From contig JAEMWC010000058.1 in NCBI GenBank assembly GCA_016490735.1, positions 585,001-649,000 of the forward strand: a DNA stretch of 64,000 bases. The letters run 5' to 3'. Position numbers and translations under genes: made by a program. Positions 33,501 through 61,392 of the stretch are shown here, piece by piece. Source of the DNA: Pachyseris speciosa. Its lineage: Eukaryota; Cnidaria; Anthozoa; Scleractinia; Pachyseridae. The notes beneath the pieces were generated by a model, which had not been told where the DNA came from, did not search any database, and saw only the letters and a list, made by a program, of their open reading frames with translations. How positions within the stretch are numbered: position 1 is the stretch's first letter; each line of letters starts with the position of its first letter.

Positions 33501-36500
33501 AATACGAGGTGTGTGAGCCGCGCGCTTCCGAGTGGCTTGTGAGAAAGAGGGAGAAATGCGAATAGTAGCGAAGCGCTCAGTCGTTACCCCACTCCTACAT
33601 GAGAGCCTTTTGCTTGTTCAAAAGCCATAACTTCAAATTAGAACATGTGTTACTTAGATTTTGCTGTTTCGATGACACAATTTTTTTTCCAGAGGTTTCA
33701 TCGGTGTACCGGCATATTTGTTCATATGATGTTTGATTATTCATTTGATAGGAAAGTGTCTTGCTAACTATCAGTCGACTCTGCACCAGTACCTTGAATG
33801 TCAAGAGGTTCTTAGAGAATCGACTAATGGATGAGTTAATCAATCTAATGTTGCTCAGCGGGGAAGAAAGCATTAAGAGAGAAGCAGTGATTTGTCTTAG
33901 CGAGGTTAGTGGACAGTAATGGCATCTTTGGAACTAAGGTACTGATTCCTCGAAATTTCTGCATATATAAGCCTGAACATATAAGTGGTTTTCACGTTAC
34001 GTCATCGCCGCTATGCTGATCCCTCATTAGCTCCTTTTGTTCGTCCACCAGCAGTTGTTCATTTCACCGTTGTTATCTGTGTCTCCATAGATTGGCTGCA
34101 AACCACCCACACCTACTGTTTTTGATAAGGTTGTAGCCAGGTCTGATTAAAAGAATTCCTGCGACAGATAATTAAGGAAACGCAGCAAGATGTTGGGCAT
34201 AAGCTTGCGATGTTGAAGAGACGTTTTACTCCGGCCGAAGGCTCAACTTGTGACGCGAGCAGTACTTAATATATCATTGCTACACTGGTTAAGAGAATGC
34301 CTGCGTTTCTAGGGGGGTGAGAGTGGGGAAGGGGGCTGGGGTGGGGTGGGGCAAAGTGGGTTGGGGAAGGAGCTATGCTTGAGGACAGAGTAAGGAATTA
34401 AGGACGATGGGGGGAAATGAAAAATAAAATAGAAAATGTTTTAAAATCTTTAGGGCCGCTTGAACCAGGCAACACTAAAGCGCATGCCCTTTGTAGGTCG
34501 TAGAGAAGTCCGAACACGCTGGTCTCTGGCTGGAAGTGATGACCATATCTGGAGTGGAGGCACTCTTCGGTCTCATAACGTCATCAGGACCTCTGCAAAA
34601 GGCGGCGCTCCTTGCGGTCAAGAATCTCGCAGCTCATCCAAAAATGGCACAGGTTCTCATGGAGTATGACTTGGACTGCGTCACACAATTAACAGCTTGC
34701 AAGGTCGAATGCTTTGTTCTGTTGTTCTTCCCTCATATTATTCTCAAAATTCACCTGATTCACTGCATTATTTCTCTGTTTGTTCAATTAGCACACTAAT
34801 GTCTATATGCTTTCCACTGTTTTTCGCTGAGATATGCCCATTTTTACTCCATCAATCGATCCCTTTTTGGTCATATTTTACGCCCAGTTTTTAATTTGTT
34901 TTTTCGGCTGTTTCTGATCATTGTTCCTATATGAAATATAAGTCTGGAGAAGCTGTTACGTGAATATCTATTTTTATTTTCTATTTGAAGTTATACCCTG
35001 CATGTTTAAGACTATAAGAGGCAACCTCTATTAATTTCCGTAATAGCTCAATTTGCGTACATGAACTAGAACGATCTAGCATCTACATAGTAGGGCCGCA
35101 ATGCAAACTACTGGGTCACCATTAATTGTGTTTAATTAACCAAAAGAGTTGTTGTCGTTAATAATGTAAAGCTTTGCATTTTACAGTTATGATAAAGTTA
35201 CCCAAATATCATAGCATTTGTCTTTTTCCCTAGAATTCTCAAGGGAAGTACATAGGCAATCCAGAAATACAGGTAAGTGTAAGTGTTGAGGTTCAATTTT
35301 ATCCTTGGTTCAATTTTTATTTTCCTTTGTTTTGTACTCATTATCATACATTACCATACACAAGAACAAAAGAAAATAAAAATTGAACCATGGATAAAAT
35401 TGAACCACAACATAAGTACTACAGGTACCACAGATAATTCAGGTAATTCATATTACAGCGGAACCTCGATTTAAACCTCTATATAACGAAGTCCTCGATA
35501 TAACGAACGATATTTTTCAGTCCGACCTTTTTAAATGTATTGATAAGGATCTTGATATAACGAACCCTCGATTTAACGAACGAAATTCCCTAGTCCCTTG
35601 GTACTTCGTTAAATCGAGGTTCCATTGTAATACAGGTAATACCTGCCTTATTACTAACAACGAATTTGTTTCTTATTTTTTTGTTTGCTTTTCTATGCAG
35701 GGCCTGGTTACGCATGCATTAACAAATTTAATTTCCCATGACTCCTCTACTGTCGAAGCGTTTCTTTCAAAGTATGACGACGCCATTGGAAATGTTGTGG
35801 ATCTGTTGCAGTATAGCCCATGGTAAGCCGTCTTTGTTCAGTCAGGGTTAGTAGTGTTCTGGCCGTTCAATGCCTAGACAAATGTTGAAGAAGTGTCTCT
35901 CTTAAATGCATTATATAAATTGGAAGTGACGTTGGAGGCATTCTTAAGTTAAAAAAAAGGAAAGAAAAGAAATTCTTGCATGTGCGGTGCCTTGTGAAAA
36001 AGATTAATTTGACATTAAAAAGTTATGCGAAACTTTAATTTTTTGGTCCATCCACAAAAATTAGGAAAAAATGTCTAAAATATATTATGACCGAAAATAC
36101 GCATAACACGAAGGGAGTACTGCTGAGATGCGTTAAATTTTATGCTTAATTTTTCATCTTCGTTGTTTTCGTTAATGTTTCACCTTATTAGAATTTATTG
36201 TTTTCCATCAAAAAATGCATGTCTTGTTTTCTCTCTCAGTCCTCAGCAACAGCAATCTGCACGTCTCCTAGCAACCTTAGCCTTCCATAAAGCGGGTCTC
36301 GCAGCGTTGATATCCCATAATGCCACAGAGCATCTGTTGTGGGCGGTCACGTGTTCACATTGCAGGTAAGAAAAATGTTCGTTGACGTCAACAAAGTTCA
36401 GCTGGGAAACTTGCTTTTCCGTACGCTTAACATAAGCGGTATACAAGTACTCTTTGTACTTGCTGTCAATATTGGTGTCCCAAGGCACTGCTACATCAAT

Positions 36501-36669
36501 GATCTTTATGTTGTTATCCACATTGTCTACCAATACAGTGTCAGGGCGACGTTGATGGATGGTACGATCGGTGAAATTGTTGAAATCCCAGAGAATTTTA
36601 CAGCTCTCGTTTTCAAGAAATGTTTCCACTTAATATTGCCACCACTTTTATCAATCATCATCATCATCA

Positions 36670-36711
<42 letters not shown>

Positions 36712-37587
36712 CAGGGAAAGTCCATGTTCTAATAAATTAAGGATACATGTAAATATATTTTTTATCATACATTCTGTAATTAATGTAAATATTTTGAAGT
36801 AGAAATAAAGTCTGTGATTAAATTTATTATTATTATTGTTATTGTTATTATTATTATTATTTATGTGTACATGATCTGTTGCCCATTAAAAGTAAGTTCA
36901 AAATTTACCGTTCAGTGTATGAGGATTGTCTTTTGTGTTTTTTCAACAGACGCTTTAGGAAACAAGCAAGCATAGCCTTGAAAAACATATCTACGAACCC
37001 AGACAGAGAATCTGTTTTGTCGGCCTTAAGCCAAGTGGCTGTAGCGAGAGCACCTTCACAAGATGAAGCAAGTTTAATTTCTGGCAATTTAGGAACAGTC
37101 TCTTCTGGTGAAAAGAATGTGCAAAGAGCATCAACGGATCATTTGTCACGGACCCCCAGTAAGGGAGCTTTGATGACAGACATGTCAACTCGACACTTCA
37201 GAGGACTAGCTCGGACCTGACTTCATTGTTAACTCTAGTCTTTCAAAGTGACACTCTGTGGAGAAATGGTTCGGAGAGACAATTCTTAGGGCCGACTCAT
37301 GTAGCCGATCGCAGGCTGACAAGACTTAAACAGGCGAATAGCTTTGCTGAGAAAGATAGATATTTGAGCAGTTTAAGCGTTCTAACTAACACACTAGTTG
37401 TGATGTCGAATCTGATACTGATAAGTGGAAGTACCGAAGACAAAAGTGGTGAAGTTCCAGTGGAAGTAAGGTGGGTCTGTTTCTGTTAATTGTAATATAA
37501 ATAAATCAGCTAGTCAATCAATCCTGAATCAATCGATCGATCAGTCAGTCAGTCAGACCGTCAGTCAGTCATTTAATCAAACAACCG

Positions 37588-48203: not shown

Positions 48204-49708
48204 TCAAAATGTGTCGTCCGGTTGAAACACCCATTCAATCGGTGGAACAGGTGACTCGGGAACCCTAAGGTAACGGCATTTGCCTCTTCGGTCTTGATAA
48301 TACCATGACCTGTCCTGATCTATCAGATGCGACGTTGAGGGGCATGTGTCCGTGTTTACGAACACTCGGCTTTCGCTTCTTTGTTCTCGGATCGAGTTGC
48401 TTGGCAAAACGGGCCTAGTCTTTTTAGCCTCTTTTACTTTCAATGTTTCCGGGCTCGCCATTGGCTGGTTGCTCCTCAAGAAAGTCAAGACTCTGAGATT
48501 CAACTCTTCCTCGGAGATTGTAGGTGAGGAAACCTTCACACTGGTTGTCTCTTTGCCAGAAGACATCCTGCCCTTTGGCCTGAGCTTGGCTTCCCTCTGC
48601 GGGCTTATCACTGCTTTTCCGACTGTAGGCTGCATTATTCTGCCCGAGCTCGTCCTCAAATCGTTTTCAGGGGAATTGAGGTGTACACCATGCATATTAA
48701 AAATCTGTTTCCCTTCGATCTTTATTTTCCGGGTTGCTTCGGTCGAATTTTGAATTGACGAATTAAAAAATCGCGAGGAAACAACATCTTGCTGTTTAAC
48801 GTCAAAAGTAGTTGCCATTATCTTGCTTTCGTAGGATTGTGTTTCTTCCTGGTCATTAGTATTTCCTTCCGATCTTGCGGTCGGCGATGACGTCATCTTA
48901 TTGTCATTAGGCCAAAATAGAATTTGATCCGCAGATTTTTCCGAAATAAAACTTCTCGGCGATGATGATTTGCTTGACCGCATTTCATCAATTCTTTCGT
49001 TCCCTGAAGATTCATTTTCTTCTTTAGTTTTCAAAGTTTCGATGGATTCAACGATTTTGGGCAAAATATAGCGTGAGTCATTGCTTTTGACTTCCAAGTG
49101 GCGCTTCTCTTGTGCAAAGGGACGTAATATCCGCTTGGGCACTGCGTCCTTTGCAGAAGATCCAGATCTTTCGTTTGTAAAGTTGTTTGAAAAATTGTCA
49201 GAAAAAGACATTCGTCTGCTGGCTTTTGGAGGTGTCTTACTGGCTTGACTATGCAGTTTATAGCTTCTTTCCACAAAAGGTCGATTCTTTTCCTTGCTTG
49301 CCCGTGATATCCGTCCCAGCGGGGTCGTTGTCGTAAAGACCCCGGCTCGAAAACGACGCCTCATTGCTGATGTTTCAGGCGATTTGTTTGAAATTGAAAC
49401 ATCATCTGACCGTTCAGGACGGCGTCCTTCGCGACGAAAAAGTGAGCCTAACTTTTCAAGATCCATTTTCTTGTCTTCAGTGAATTCTGCGGGTTGTTTG
49501 TAGCCATTAGTAAGTCGTATAACCCTGTTATCGGAATATCCTCGGGTGTGGTATCGGTCGTTAGCCGATAATACATCGTTGCCTTGAGTTTGCGAGTCTG
49601 TTTCTGCCTCTCCCAACACCTTCGCCGCTGTCGTTGCGTTCATTTGACCTGTAGGAAATTTTTCGTTTCTCTCTGCGACAGAGAACGTGGCCCTTGCACG
49701 GTGGATTG
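48204..49708 (-). CDS. unrecognised disordered protein, terminal exon
   Basis: One uninterrupted frame of about 500 codons ends at TGA 48204. On the minus strand a good acceptor (attcttcacag) precedes 49708, so this is probably the last exon of a longer gene whose 5' exons were not found. An internal start (MNATTAAKVLGE) is also possible. The product is rich in Ser, Arg, Lys and Glu, and it is predicted to be mostly disordered, with no signal peptide, membrane helix or enzyme motif. It has basic patches such as AMRRRFRAG and a compact, aromatic-rich C-terminus (WYYQDRRGKCRYLRVPESP, then PPIEWVF) that looks like a conserved peptide or small fold. I do not recognise the family. The frame length in A+T-rich DNA makes it very unlikely to be chance. 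Confidence 0.8.
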
Positions 49709-51005
49709 CTGTGAAGAATGAGTAGATCAAGAGTAATAATTACTGAGAGTCATGCGACTATGCCATGCGTGACTTCACTTTAGCACAATTTGTAATTACA
49801 GAGGAAATGAATAACAAGGTGTTAATAATAGAAACCGCCTGGGGTGCGCCGCCAGTCACGCTTTCTGTACACTTTTAACCTTTTCTAACAACTTAAGAGC
49901 GTTGAAGTGCGAAATTCTTATTTCTTTCAGCAAGAAATTAGTAATGAAAGATTGTATACTGGTCACAGAATTCAATCATGAACCGGCGAATGGTCCTTCG
50001 TGACGGGATTTCAACCGCAGACTGAAGCACTTAGGTCCACAGAAACGTGATGGCCACCCTTTGACGCTGCAATTTCATCCACAGTGTCAAATGTTTGTAT
50101 AAAAACCACAAGTCAAGTGTTGAGATATTTGTCCGTGGGAGAAAATTCCATCATTATTACAGTTTTGCATTTTGTTCTGTCGGTCGATCGTCGAGAGACC
50201 ATTGCATTAATTTCCTAGAGATAAGAGTGACAAAACAAGAGAAAGGAAGTTTATCCCGAAACATTAATGGTAATTGACACAAGCTTAATGCGGTATCGTA
50301 CGTTGGTACTAAGATCAAATATTTCATGCGATTTTCATCAGTGGCAAGCGTTATTAGATAAGCCGACTTTCTACGAACTCAACTCGCCTGGGGTCCTGAC
50401 TTACCCTCTCTCTGTCTGCAAAAACAGCAAATTGGATCGCCTAGAGCATTGCTCAAAAATATATTATTTTAAGGAAACGTGTACGCCAAATCGAAGGAAG
50501 GGTTTGGTTTTGAGTTGCCAAAGTTCTATTTTGTATCATATATTACATACACTGCGGTTTCGTTTGCCCAAATGAATGGCGTGATAAAAACTAATCGTCG
50601 GAAGTCACTTTATTGGTAATTAACAAGGAATTAAGTTAAAATTTTTAATATACATTGTCGAAACCACTCAAAAAATGCAAACCATGACGGAAGTCACGTA
50701 AGGAATAAAAAAAGATTTGAGAAGAATGTCGGACATATCTGTCAGCGCTTCTTGCCAGCCATGCAAACGCGCTAGACGGCTCTTCCAGATTAGGTTGAAA
50801 AGTTTTGTCCTTTGAGTGTCAATTTACCAAAGTTTCAACTTAATCAATGAAAAGCTTTCTTGGCCCTAAGGCGGTGACAGTTTTTATTAATATGTGCAAA
50901 ATCTTTGCATTCTTTCATGGTGACGATCACTTCAAATATCGGAAAACAGCGCGCAAACATTGATCTTGTCCGCCATTAGTCATATATGCAAGTGTCATTT
51001 TCAAG

Positions 51006-57690: not shown

Positions 57691-60600
57691 ATGGAAACTT
57701 TAAAGGAATATTTGCTTTCAAAGTACTTCAGTTCGTTTGGCTATGTTGTAATTATCTTCCACGTCCCAGCGTTAGTAACATTTGCCGCCTTCACAGGCCA
57801 GCTGAGAACAAGCCAACGGAGATTATTTCGCTGCGATGACTTCGACTGTCGCGACGACTGTCTGCGAGAATATGACAACCAGTTCAACTCTCCTTTTCCT
57901 CTCTATGGCTTTGCCTTGTTGTGTTTCGTTCCTCAGGTGGTTGTATCCATCGCCTACTCCTGGTGCTTTGTGAAATCCCGAGTTGATGAAATAGAAATCG
58001 CCATGAAACCAGACCCTGAAAACCCTCGTCCCAGACCAAGAGTCACTTCTCGAAAAGTGTTTTGTTCTTACTTCGTACATCTGCTCATACGACTCGTACT
58101 GAGGATTTTGTTTATAATTCTGCAGAACTTCGTCTTTTATGCAACTGGTTTTCCAACAGAATTCGTTTGTCGTCTCTGTGATGTGCAGGCTGCAGTAAAG
58201 ACGACAGTAAATTCCACACATTTCAACAACACGAAAGCTGATTCATCCGCTGTCAACTGTGACAACTCTGTTGGATCTGACTTTGCTCTGTGGGCAAAAG
58301 GAATTTGGATCGTAAACGCTCTCTTTACCGTTCTTGAGTTGGGAGAATTGTGTTATCTTCTCGTTCAAGTACGAAACAATGATGCATTCACTTTTGACTC
58401 CGAGTTTTGCCTGAAATACTTTTTCAACAACAGTAGGACTCCAGTCACACTTCCTGACTCGGTTTTCCGCTTTAAAAGGCGATTTCGAGACGAAACGCAG
58501 TATCTGGAACCATTAATTGCTTCTTTCAGTGACAGCACAGACAACAAAGCTTTGGACGACATTTTTGTCCCACTTACTATTCAAACTGGAAGAGCAACCA
58601 ACAAGCCGGATTACACATTAGAAAGACATGAAATCTATAAGATTTATCTAACACCTCAACAAGGATCCATCGCCATAAAGAAGCTTGAAGAGTTGATTCT
58701 TCCCAATGAAGATACCCAAGATCCTAAAAAAATTCTTATTGTTGGTCGACCAGGGATCGGAAAGTCTTTACTGTGTAAGAAACTATTGCGTGACTGGAGC
58801 AACGATAAAATCTTCCGTGACAAACAAGTCTTCTTATTCCAATTCAGGCATTTCAATTCTGAGGCACTAAATGAGAACAATATTTCTCTTAAAGAGCTGC
58901 TTAGTCGTGACCATGGCGTGTTTCAGTATATTTTAGATAACCCAGAGAGAGTAGTTCTCATATTTGATGGCTTGGATGAATTTAAACACCATGAAACTTG
59001 TTTGGAGGATGAGCAGGGAGTAGCTGGAGATGGACCAACAGAGAAGATGAACTTTGCTGCTTTGTATGTGAAATTAATGAAAGGCAAACTTCTTTCTGGG
59101 GCCACAATCATAACAACCTGCAGAGCCAATGTTGTACAGAGTGCTGAAAACTTGACCTTTCATAGGTTAGTGGAAATCATGGGATTTACACCAGAGAAAA
59201 TCCAGGAATATGTACAAAAATACTGTGCACTAAACACAGAGATGATGAGCAGGATATGGGTACACATCAGCAGCAATGCAGAACTACTGTCGTTATGCTA
59301 CATACCAGTAAACTGCTTCATCATCTGTTCTCTTCTTGAAAAGTGGATTTCACTTGAAGAACAGAATTCAAAAGGTACGTTACCAAAAACAACAACAGAA
59401 GTTTTCACAGGAGCTCTGAGATTGTTCATTTTTAAACATCACTCAGCATTTAGAGGAAGACCATTAACTAGAGATTACCTCATGGGAATTACTGGCTTCC
59501 CTGACCCAGTAGAAGGGACTTTGGCCCAAGTGGGATCATTGGCAAAAAAAGGAATAGAATCACAGCAGCTTGTATTTGGATCAAAAGAAGTTCAGGGAAT
59601 GGAAAACTGTGGCCTTTTTCATCGATTACCAGACGCTGAAGTTGAACCTTGGAGGTTTGAGTCTCACTTCTGCTTCCTTCATCTGACTCTGCAAGAGTTA
59701 CTTGCAGCCAGAGAAATTGTAAAGATGCCACCCACTGACCTGAGAAATTTTATCTCCTCGAATGCTGCAGATCCAAAGTGGCAGTTGGTTATACAGTTTG
59801 TAGCTGGTTTGCTTCATGGTCAGAAAAATGAAGCCATTAACACCTTTGTCCAAATTCTTCTTGACTCAGTGAAGGGCAACTCTCCATCAAGAAAAGAAAA
59901 GGTCCTGCTGATGGTAAAGTGTTTACATGAGCACAACAATGAGGAAACTGTAAAGAAGGCAGCTTTTGAACTGGAAAGGAACAATGCAGTTTCTGAAATA
60001 AAGTTAAATGACTGTCAAGTCACACCTCTTGATTGTATAGCAATCACATATTATGTAAAGCATCTCAAGAAACCAACTGCATTGAACCTTTCTGTTGACA
60101 GCATAACAGATCAAGGTGTACCACACCTGTGTGATGCACTAAAACATGCAAATTGTAACCTTAATGAGTTGAACCTTTCAGGTAATGGCATAACAGATCA
60201 AGGTGTATCACACCTGTGTGATGCACTTAAACATGTAAATTGTAAACTCAATAAGTTGAACCTTTCTTACAACAGTATAACAGATCAAGGTGTATCACAC
60301 CTGTGTGATGCACTAAAACATGTAAATTGTAAACTCAATGAGTTGAACCTTGACTGGAGCAGTATAACAGATCAAGGTGTATCACATCTGTGTGATGCAC
60401 TAAAACATGTAAATTGTAACCTCAAAAAGTTGTACCTTGGCTCGAACGATATAACAGATCAAAGTGTGTCACACCTGTGTGATGCACTAAAACATGTAAG
60501 TTGTAACCTAACTGTGTTGAACCTTAGTTTTATCTGTATAACAGATCGGGGTGTATCACACCTGTGTGATACACTAAAACATGTTAATTGTAACCTCAAT

Positions 60601-61392
60601 GGGTTGAACCTTTCTCTCAACGGGGTAAAAGATCAAGGTGTATCAAACCTGTGTGATGCACTAAAACATGCAAATTGTAAACTCAATGAGTTAAACCTTA
60701 GACAGAGCTTTATAACAGATCAAGGTGTATCACACCTGTGTGATGCACTAAAACATGTAAATTGTAACCTCACTGAGTTGAACCTTTCAGGTACCAGTAT
60801 AACATATCAAGGTGTATCTCACCTGTGTGATGCACTAATACATGTAAATTGTAAACTAACCAATTTGTACCTTGGTACTTTAAGAATAACAGATCAAGGT
60901 GTATCATACCTGTTTGATACACTTAAACATGTAAATTGTAAACTCCGTAAGATGAACCTTGCTGTTTTTCACAGGTTAACAGATCAAGGTGTATCACACC
61001 TATGTGATACACTTAAACATCTAAATTGTAAACTCAATGAGTTGGACCTTAGTATGAATGGTATAACAGATCAAGGTGTATCACACCTGTGTGATGCACT
61101 TAAACATGTAAATTGTAAACTCAATAAGTTGAACCTTAGCATGAACGGTATAACAGATCAAGGTGTATCACACCTGTGTGATGCACTAAAACATGTAAAT
61201 TGTAACGTCAATGAGTTGAACCTTTCATATAACAGTATAACAGATCAAGGTGTATCACACTTGTATGATGCACTAAAACATGTAAATTGTAACCTCAATA
61301 AGTTGGACCTTAGCGTGAACAGTATAACAGATCAAGGAAAGAGGGAGCTAATTAAGGTGGGAGAAAATAACTGGTGTGATGTTATCTTTTGA
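57691..61392 (+). CDS. NLR: connexin-like 4-TM module + NACHT + 15 LRRs
   Basis: Single-exon gene of 1,233 residues. Residues 1-228 form a four-helix membrane module: TM1 about 17-36, TM2 about 70-94 (with Pro81), TM3 about 128-151 and TM4 about 202-226. The first loop has Cys48, Cys53 and Cys57; the second has Cys160, Cys163 and Cys190 plus sequons at Asn174 and Asn179, placing both loops outside. Three cysteines per loop and the TM2 proline match connexins; innexins and pannexins have two per loop. The NACHT ATPase follows: Walker A GRPGIGKS (352-359), Walker B VVLIFDGLDEF (421-431) and a sensor arginine in TTCRAN (475-480). Helical NLR-type linker regions lead to 15 LRRs (about 797-1225), mostly of 28 residues and the ribonuclease-inhibitor/NLRC type. 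Known NLRs oligomerise on ligand binding; here that could cluster or gate the membrane module (inference). The start ATG is the first in frame and leads directly into the amphipathic N-terminus. No death-fold, TIR or CARD domain is seen. Confidence 0.95.
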   Translation: METLKEYLLSKYFSSFGYVVIIFHVPALVTFAAFTGQLRTSQRRLFRCDDFDCRDDCLREYDNQFNSPFPLYGFALLCFVPQVVVSIAYSWCFVKSRVDEIEIAMKPDPENPRPRPRVTSRKVFCSYFVHLLIRLVLRILFIILQNFVFYATGFPTEFVCRLCDVQAAVKTTVNSTHFNNTKADSSAVNCDNSVGSDFALWAKGIWIVNALFTVLELGELCYLLVQVRNNDAFTFDSEFCLKYFFNNSRTPVTLPDSVFRFKRRFRDETQYLEPLIASFSDSTDNKALDDIFVPLTIQTGRATNKPDYTLERHEIYKIYLTPQQGSIAIKKLEELILPNEDTQDPKKILIVGRPGIGKSLLCKKLLRDWSNDKIFRDKQVFLFQFRHFNSEALNENNISLKELLSRDHGVFQYILDNPERVVLIFDGLDEFKHHETCLEDEQGVAGDGPTEKMNFAALYVKLMKGKLLSGATIITTCRANVVQSAENLTFHRLVEIMGFTPEKIQEYVQKYCALNTEMMSRIWVHISSNAELLSLCYIPVNCFIICSLLEKWISLEEQNSKGTLPKTTTEVFTGALRLFIFKHHSAFRGRPLTRDYLMGITGFPDPVEGTLAQVGSLAKKGIESQQLVFGSKEVQGMENCGLFHRLPDAEVEPWRFESHFCFLHLTLQELLAAREIVKMPPTDLRNFISSNAADPKWQLVIQFVAGLLHGQKNEAINTFVQILLDSVKGNSPSRKEKVLLMVKCLHEHNNEETVKKAAFELERNNAVSEIKLNDCQVTPLDCIAITYYVKHLKKPTALNLSVDSITDQGVPHLCDALKHANCNLNELNLSGNGITDQGVSHLCDALKHVNCKLNKLNLSYNSITDQGVSHLCDALKHVNCKLNELNLDWSSITDQGVSHLCDALKHVNCNLKKLYLGSNDITDQSVSHLCDALKHVSCNLTVLNLSFICITDRGVSHLCDTLKHVNCNLNGLNLSLNGVKDQGVSNLCDALKHANCKLNELNLRQSFITDQGVSHLCDALKHVNCNLTELNLSGTSITYQGVSHLCDALIHVNCKLTNLYLGTLRITDQGVSYLFDTLKHVNCKLRKMNLAVFHRLTDQGVSHLCDTLKHLNCKLNELDLSMNGITDQGVSHLCDALKHVNCKLNKLNLSMNGITDQGVSHLCDALKHVNCNVNELNLSYNSITDQGVSHLYDALKHVNCNLNKLDLSVNSITDQGKRELIKVGENNWCDVIF
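60082..61340 (+). repeat. 84-bp tandem LRR-coding array, 15 units
   Basis: Units of 84 bp share words such as ataacagatcaaggtgtatc, cacctgtgtgatgcac and aaacatgtaaattgtaa almost without change. Differences cluster in the roughly 15 bp after ttgaacctt. One unit (about 60955-61040) is 3 bp longer. Confidence 0.97.

Follow-up and report, generated by a model that had tools for sequence, protein, structure and literature searches.

A NACHT-LRR receptor gene of the stony coral Pachyseris speciosa with an N-terminal four-helix membrane module probably related to connexins

Connexins are called chordate-specific in an excerpt of the earlier literature (PMC4685580). A BLAST survey of all non-chordate taxa by Welzel and Schuster, 2022, reports in its excerpted part no connexin-like protein, with one unconfirmed sea-urchin transcript as the sole exception (PMC8769644). 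NOD-like receptors (NLRs) are called cytosolic in a passage of a coral genome paper, in which a domain census of the NLRs of five corals by InterProScan tags long N-termini without domains as 'noneDetected'; the word connexin is absent from the excerpted main text (PMC10236652). The open-licence PMC literature yielded no paper on connexins with cnidarian NLRs, and its titles and abstract starts report no cnidarian connexin. Among the plant resistosomes, the N-terminus of ZAR1 forms a channel after ring assembly, its soluble coiled coil being inserted on activation. The ring of plant NRC2 is a hexamer according to an excerpt of PMC11540030.

The window, i.e. the whole stretch of 64,000 nucleotides of Pachyseris speciosa DNA under study, contains an NLR gene with the following features (window coordinates, strand):

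57691..61392 (+): single-exon ORF of 1233 aa with connexin-related 4-TM module, linker, NACHT, helical region and LRRs
57691..58374 (+): 4-TM connexin-related module, residues 1-228
57691..57744 (+): predicted cytosolic N-terminal segment, residues 1-18 (from hydropathy and alignment, the topology being inferred)
57745..57801 (+): TM1, residues 19-37, hydropathy peak at 25
57802..57900 (+): E1 outer loop, residues 38-70, with C48, C53 and C57
57847..57849 (+): Cys53 codon, covarying with Cys163
57901..57966 (+): TM2, residues 71-92, with Pro81 and, at its end, C92
57967..58059 (+): predicted cytosolic loop, residues 93-123, basic and proline-rich (8 K/R in 31)
58060..58143 (+): TM3, residues 124-151, with R134 and Q145; the Pfam Connexin match covers 115-162
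58144..58287 (+): E2 outer loop, residues 152-199, with C160, C163, C190 and N-glycosylation sequons N174 and N179
58177..58179 (+): Cys163 codon, covarying with Cys53
58288..58359 (+): TM4, residues 200-223, GELCYLL aligned to connexin TELCYLL
58360..58731 (+): linker between TM4 and NACHT, about residues 224-347, of which 231-343 are conserved in relatives
58732..59226 (+): NACHT domain, residues 348-512 (Pfam PF05729, E 3.1e-24)
58744..58767 (+): Walker A, GRPGIGKS, residues 352-359
58951..58980 (+): Walker B, VVLIFDGLDE, residues 421-430
60061..61389 (+): LRR region, about residues 791-1233 (Pfam LRR_6, E 6.1e-40, 12 stretches; limits set by us)

The start codon of the ORF lies at 57691 (ATG, flanked by A at -3 and G at +4), and its 1233 codons run in an unbroken reading frame to the TGA stop at 61390-61392, with NACHT and LRR_6 in the same frame as the 4-TM module. 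Hydrophobic peaks are centred near residues 25, 85, 140 and 208/216. The protein shares with metazoan NACHT-LRR receptors the NACHT domain with Walker A and B motifs and the LRR C-terminus, and is in this respect an NLR. In contrast to classic NLRs, its N-terminal part is a 4-TM module and not a death-fold or TIR effector: CARD, PYD, DED, death and TIR were all without a Pfam match, the whole protein lacking any death-fold or TIR match at E<=10 in a search from which HMMER drops most weak matches. The original prediction that on this NLR a 4-TM module replaces the death-fold domain thus holds for one intact ORF. The details it listed are likewise present, i.e. outer-loop cysteines at exactly 48, 53, 57 and 160, 163, 190, the FRC motif (46-48) before TM2, Pro81 in TM2, Gln145 and aromatic residues where TM3 ends, and the LELGELCYLL of TM4. 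Because of this 4-TM N-terminus the coral NLR is probably membrane-resident. Only the module itself was found when a second copy was sought with tblastn in the 64-kb window. Elsewhere in the window, an open frame of 511 aa (48204-49739, -) has no Pfam match at E<=0.1, and another with a long isoleucine run (36321-36740, +) is probably a simple repeat and not a gene.

A search with residues 1-290 found 133 relatives at E<=0.01 among 1061 candidates; 120 of these 133 were listed and used. NACHT is present in all of these 120 and is accompanied by LRRs in 116 (P0034, P0108, P0111 and P0113 list NACHT only). Nine named relatives among those listed come from Oculina patagonica, Desmophyllum pertusum, Pocillopora verrucosa and Stylophora pistillata, four genera that are all stony corals. 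The fused 4-TM/NACHT/LRR architecture is a conserved family, and the proposal that it is a new architecture is supported. The cold-water coral Desmophyllum pertusum has no algal symbionts, and its membership indicates that the family does not depend on photosymbiosis. Walker A occurs in 120 and a Walker B-like motif in all of 121 proteins. Median identity to P0001 amounts to 60% in the module, 63% in NACHT and 45% in the LRRs (80/120 rows), rows with less than 80% coverage of a region having been dropped (118, 120, 120, 119 and 80 of 120 kept in the five regions, 79 in common). These values suggest a conserved front end and core and a fast-changing sensor end.

For the module alignments, 41 representatives at 88% identity were chosen from 118 of the 121 proteins; three without an aligning N-terminus were left out. 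Q145 and R134 are invariant in two module alignments (23/23 and 14/14), as is E219 in 23 of 23 representatives. Cys92 (57964-57966), which closes TM2 on the side predicted to be cytosolic, is invariant in the 41 NLR-type representatives and not in the stand-alone proteins described below. Four relatives (P0095, P0100, P0110, P0120) bear the public names 'NACHT, LRR and PYD domains-containing protein 12' or 'Protein NLRC3'; PYD (PF02758) is absent from their precomputed Pfam domains.

The coral module shares with connexins (PF00029; Cx26, Cx32, Cx43, Cx36) the four TMs, the FxC start of E1, the register of the first and third E1 cysteines, a cysteine after TM3, a cysteine before TM4, the ELCYLL of TM4 and a colinear profile match; its ends and loop may likewise be cytosolic. 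Unlike connexins, the coral family has two conserved cysteines per loop with a third pair, differently spaced, in one subclade, and it is not from a chordate. Its E2 is longer and bears sequons, and the module is followed by an NLR part of about 1000 residues. When 177,635 PDB sequences were searched with a profile built from 23 modules, six matches came out at E<=10, all of them connexins, with marginal E-values of 0.0066-0.019 (best single stretch 0.41, large bias correction); the best one is colinear (15-225 against 19-218). A wider profile of 14 sequences gave 16 matches, 15 of them connexins, with a best E of 0.0068. The weight of these searches would lie in their specificity for connexins. 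A single-sequence phmmer search of the PDB gave one weak match, NDH-1 subunit 3 (E 0.68), set aside as irrelevant.

Profile-profile comparison by hhalign aligned 49 sequences with six connexins at a score of 49.35 (probability 90) over 185 colinear columns, reached by none of 300 column shuffles (maximum 36.2). The alignment, unprompted, sets the FRC of E1 on Cx26 FVC and GELCYLLVQ on TELCYLLIR, and the first and third cysteines of E1 align to connexin E1 C1 and C3. Separately, 44 NLR-type sequences (41 plus P0138, all with NACHT, and two fragments lacking that label, P0150 and P0151) scored 33.7 and five stand-alones 42.9, each with 0/200 shuffles as high; a first set of 41 sequences scored 30.5 against the connexin profile, with 1/100 shuffles as high. 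As single sequences, Cx26, Cx32, Cx36 and Cx43 exceed all of 60 shuffles, Cx46 (2/60) and Cx50 (4/60) are not clear of theirs, and PANX1, LRRC8A, fly Inx1/ogre and claudin-1 fall within their own, the rival families being represented by one sequence each and connexins also by the six-sequence profile. CD81 scored 21.6 (3/60 shuffles as high) in a match of only 39-40 columns, and CALHM1 18.8 over 17 columns (8/60; 18.5 and 12/100 with the earlier set), so that the 4-TM module has no CALHM profile match above its shuffles. With the five stand-alones PANX1 reached 22.4 and CD81 23.8, values without shuffle control. Among the comparison sequences, Cx43 was confirmed by its letters and PANX1 by a full-length match.

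Other comparisons are less favourable. The window protein reaches 16.2-18.4 bits on Pfam Connexin, below the gathering score of 31.3, and a Connexin label is absent from all 120 listed relatives. The suggested Pfam check of the module returned Connexin, at 18 bits, as a match under the cut-off and listed neither Innexin nor Pannexin_like; nor were these two listed for the 23 representatives or for the ten further proteins mentioned below. At a threshold of E<=10, Connexin hits occur for 17 of the 23 representatives (best 5.3e-5). UPF0542 is matched by 7/23, up to 1.5e-5, and membrane composition alone can therefore yield Pfam E-values like those of Connexin; membership in UPF0542 was set aside as a likely match of this kind. 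When one profile was compared one-sidedly with single sequences, only Cx26 exceeded all 500 shuffles, the score being reached by 2 shuffles for Cx36, 9 for Cx32, 20 for Cx50, 22 for Cx43, 37 for Cx46, 20 for CD81 and 36 for PANX1; in bits, CD81 (3.2) and PANX1 (2.4) scored above Cx50 (2.0) and Cx46 (1.9). LRRC8A and the innexin stayed within their shuffles in this comparison and, like PANX1, in hhalign with the first set of 41. In the tree, the branch to the connexins is long (2.86 plus 1.46 changes per column) and drew a long-branch warning, so that the tree does not fix their position. Prokaryotic genome contigs and IMG/VR contigs gave 12 pattern matches each, none of them confirmed as a relative.

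A colinear, full-length profile relationship to connexins beyond that to other 4-TM families is nevertheless found, although weaker in two tests, and common ancestry of module and connexins appears likely. We class the module as a sister family related to connexins that lies below the Pfam membership score; neither score nor cysteine pattern makes it a connexin. The profile comparisons thus support the predicted relationship to connexins and not to innexins, pannexins or LRRC8. Innexins and pannexins share four TMs, two cysteines per loop and glycosylation sites on the outer loops (PMC8769644, in excerpt), and differ in the shuffle results of PANX1 and fly Inx1/ogre and in the Pfam result given above. 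LRRC8 (VRAC) likewise joins a 4-TM large-pore module to LRRs in a single chain (topology from an excerpt of PMC9130832); unlike LRRC8, the coral protein has a NACHT ATPase between TM module and LRRs, and its module lacks a sequence match to LRRC8A.

Relatives with the same N-terminus had been proposed for a search with and without NACHT, and both kinds exist. The stand-alone P0147 was found by a profile of NLR-fused modules (1.4e-18), and a second search seeded with P0147 gave 13 hits, two of which (P0153, P0154) carry a precomputed Pfam Connexin label. Against the version of Pfam Connexin searched here, P0153 reaches 30.0 bits (E 5.5e-7) and P0154 26.9 bits (E 4.8e-6), with a cut-off of 31.3. 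Six of ten proteins tested match Connexin at E<=1, P0138, P0152, P0155 and P0158 being without a match. NLR-type modules and stand-alones align by hhalign with an E of 5.6e-39; P0152, P0156, P0157, P0159 and most of the 28 hits from the NLR-module profile were left out of the extended alignment. The stand-alone relatives, presumably cnidarian, appear to link the NLR-fused family and connexins. P0147, P0158 and P0155 (the last by eye) have an extra hydrophobic segment near the C-terminus and a shared end, and may be a separate 5-TM branch; P0158 carries additional E1 cysteines.

C48, C57, C160 and C190 occur in all 41 representatives, and two cysteines per loop are the family norm. C53 and C163 are each present in the same ten of the 41. 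Over 147 rows (P0001-P0159 without a gap at 48 or 160, near-copies included, sequences and not events being counted) both are present in 19, neither in 124 and a single one in 4. The ten sequences form one clade, with values of 99/98 when both columns are included and 100/98 when both are removed and P0158, with its long branch and odd composition, is left out. Two-cysteine relatives outside this clade are found on both sides of the tree, the deepest NLR branch order differing between the two trees. Most simply, a disulphide C53-C163 would have been gained once, as a pair, inside one coral subclade. In Cx26 the middle pair is C60-C174, which C53-C163 would match in order by convergence. Connexin loops have the spacing C-x6-C-x3-C and C-x4/5-C-x5-C, visible in the Cx43 sequence; the window protein has C-x4-C-x3-C and C-x2-C-x26-C and does not show the connexin three-cysteine pattern.

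Since the third pair is most simply a paired gain restricted to a subclade, three cysteines per loop, originally offered as connexin evidence, do not speak for connexin membership: the statement is true of the window protein and its subclade and not of the family. The connexin claim would be carried by the whole-module profile. Of the two readings left open at the outset, distant relative or convergence, the former is favoured for the module and the latter for the third cysteine pair. The contrast of three cysteines in connexins with two in innexins is weak as well, because a figure legend of Welzel and Schuster gives cnidarian innexins with more than two EL1 cysteines (PMC8769644, in excerpt).

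N-glycosylation sequons are present in E2 of 48/49 sequences (107 in total). Elsewhere in the 49 sequences there are none in E1, three in the cytosolic loop, three in the C-terminal stretch and two in TM4, with loop limits set by us; sequon N246 of the window protein falls on the predicted cytosolic side. Together with the four hydropathy regions, the E2 sequons in 48/49 fit the connexin topology predicted here, with both ends and the middle loop cytosolic, and their distribution agrees with E2 outside or lumenal and NACHT-LRR cytosolic. Glycans on pannexin loops are held to prevent docking (excerpt of PMC8769644). Given this precedent and the E2 sequons, a hemichannel seems more likely than a gap junction.

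The explanation we prefer, and consider somewhat more probable than its opposite, is a membrane-resident NLR with a large-pore module that shares ancestry with connexins and is opened as a hemichannel by the NACHT ring. The N-terminus, the middle loop and the NACHT-LRR half would face the cytosol, whereas two loops, presumably tied by disulphides, would point to the outside or to an organelle lumen, the second bearing sugars. The LRRs would sense a cytosolic or membrane-associated cue, upon which the NACHT ATPase would switch and the subunits assemble into a ring. Ring assembly by NLRs is established elsewhere. In the coral protein the ring would gather or twist the 4-TM modules into an open hemichannel, and the signal would be a flux of ions or small molecules. 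Plant resistosomes are alike only in this proposed mode of working, without a claim of homology, and the membrane module is built in here.

A rather unlikely alternative is that the module is related to connexins and does not conduct, serving as a membrane anchor that may preset the oligomeric state, with signalling through NACHT-LRR or partners. It draws on the fact that the channel role is predicted from sequence, and on an E2 that is unlike that of connexins and bears sequons, suggesting that docking constraints are gone. However, module and NACHT are conserved to a similar degree, the loop cysteines, TM3 Arg and Gln and TM4 Glu, invariant in the representatives, exceed the needs of a bare anchor, and Pfam found no death-fold effector. 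We judge it improbable that the module is a member of some other, unrelated family of cnidarian membrane proteins and resembles connexins by convergence. The apparently convergent third cysteine pair, the score of the window protein under the Connexin cut-off, the CD81 alignment, which demonstrates that weak 4-TM resemblance occurs, and the one-sided test with CD81 and PANX1 above Cx50 and Cx46 all point that way. Against it stand the full-length colinear profile match with 0/300 shuffles, a PDB-wide search that yields connexins alone or nearly so, and the Pfam Connexin matches of P0153 and P0154. That two genes or an assembly joint were mistaken for one protein is very improbable: although the single-protein reading derives from a genomic ORF, this ORF is single and uninterrupted, and the same fusion recurs in separately annotated corals (Desmophyllum pertusum, 1238 aa, and Oculina patagonica gene models).

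BLAST would probably miss the coral module family. The origin of connexins would become testable through a coral family that is related to them at profile level and has stand-alone relatives. It is possible, although we hold this broader view only tentatively and with slightly less than even confidence, that the connexin superfamily dates from the cnidarian-bilaterian ancestor or beyond and is not a chordate invention, with stand-alone and NLR-fused branches in cnidarians, and that in corals one branch was taken up as the inbuilt effector of a large family of NLRs, the immune receptor itself being a ligand-gated hemichannel. With an NLR that carries a large-pore module, a single animal protein would couple sensing straight to membrane permeability, an effect comparable to that of plant resistosome channels and achieved with a different part. 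Models of localisation and signalling for this coral gene family would change with respect to the view of cytosolic NOD-like receptors, and its sequences suggest that a presumed coral immune sensor may itself open a pore.
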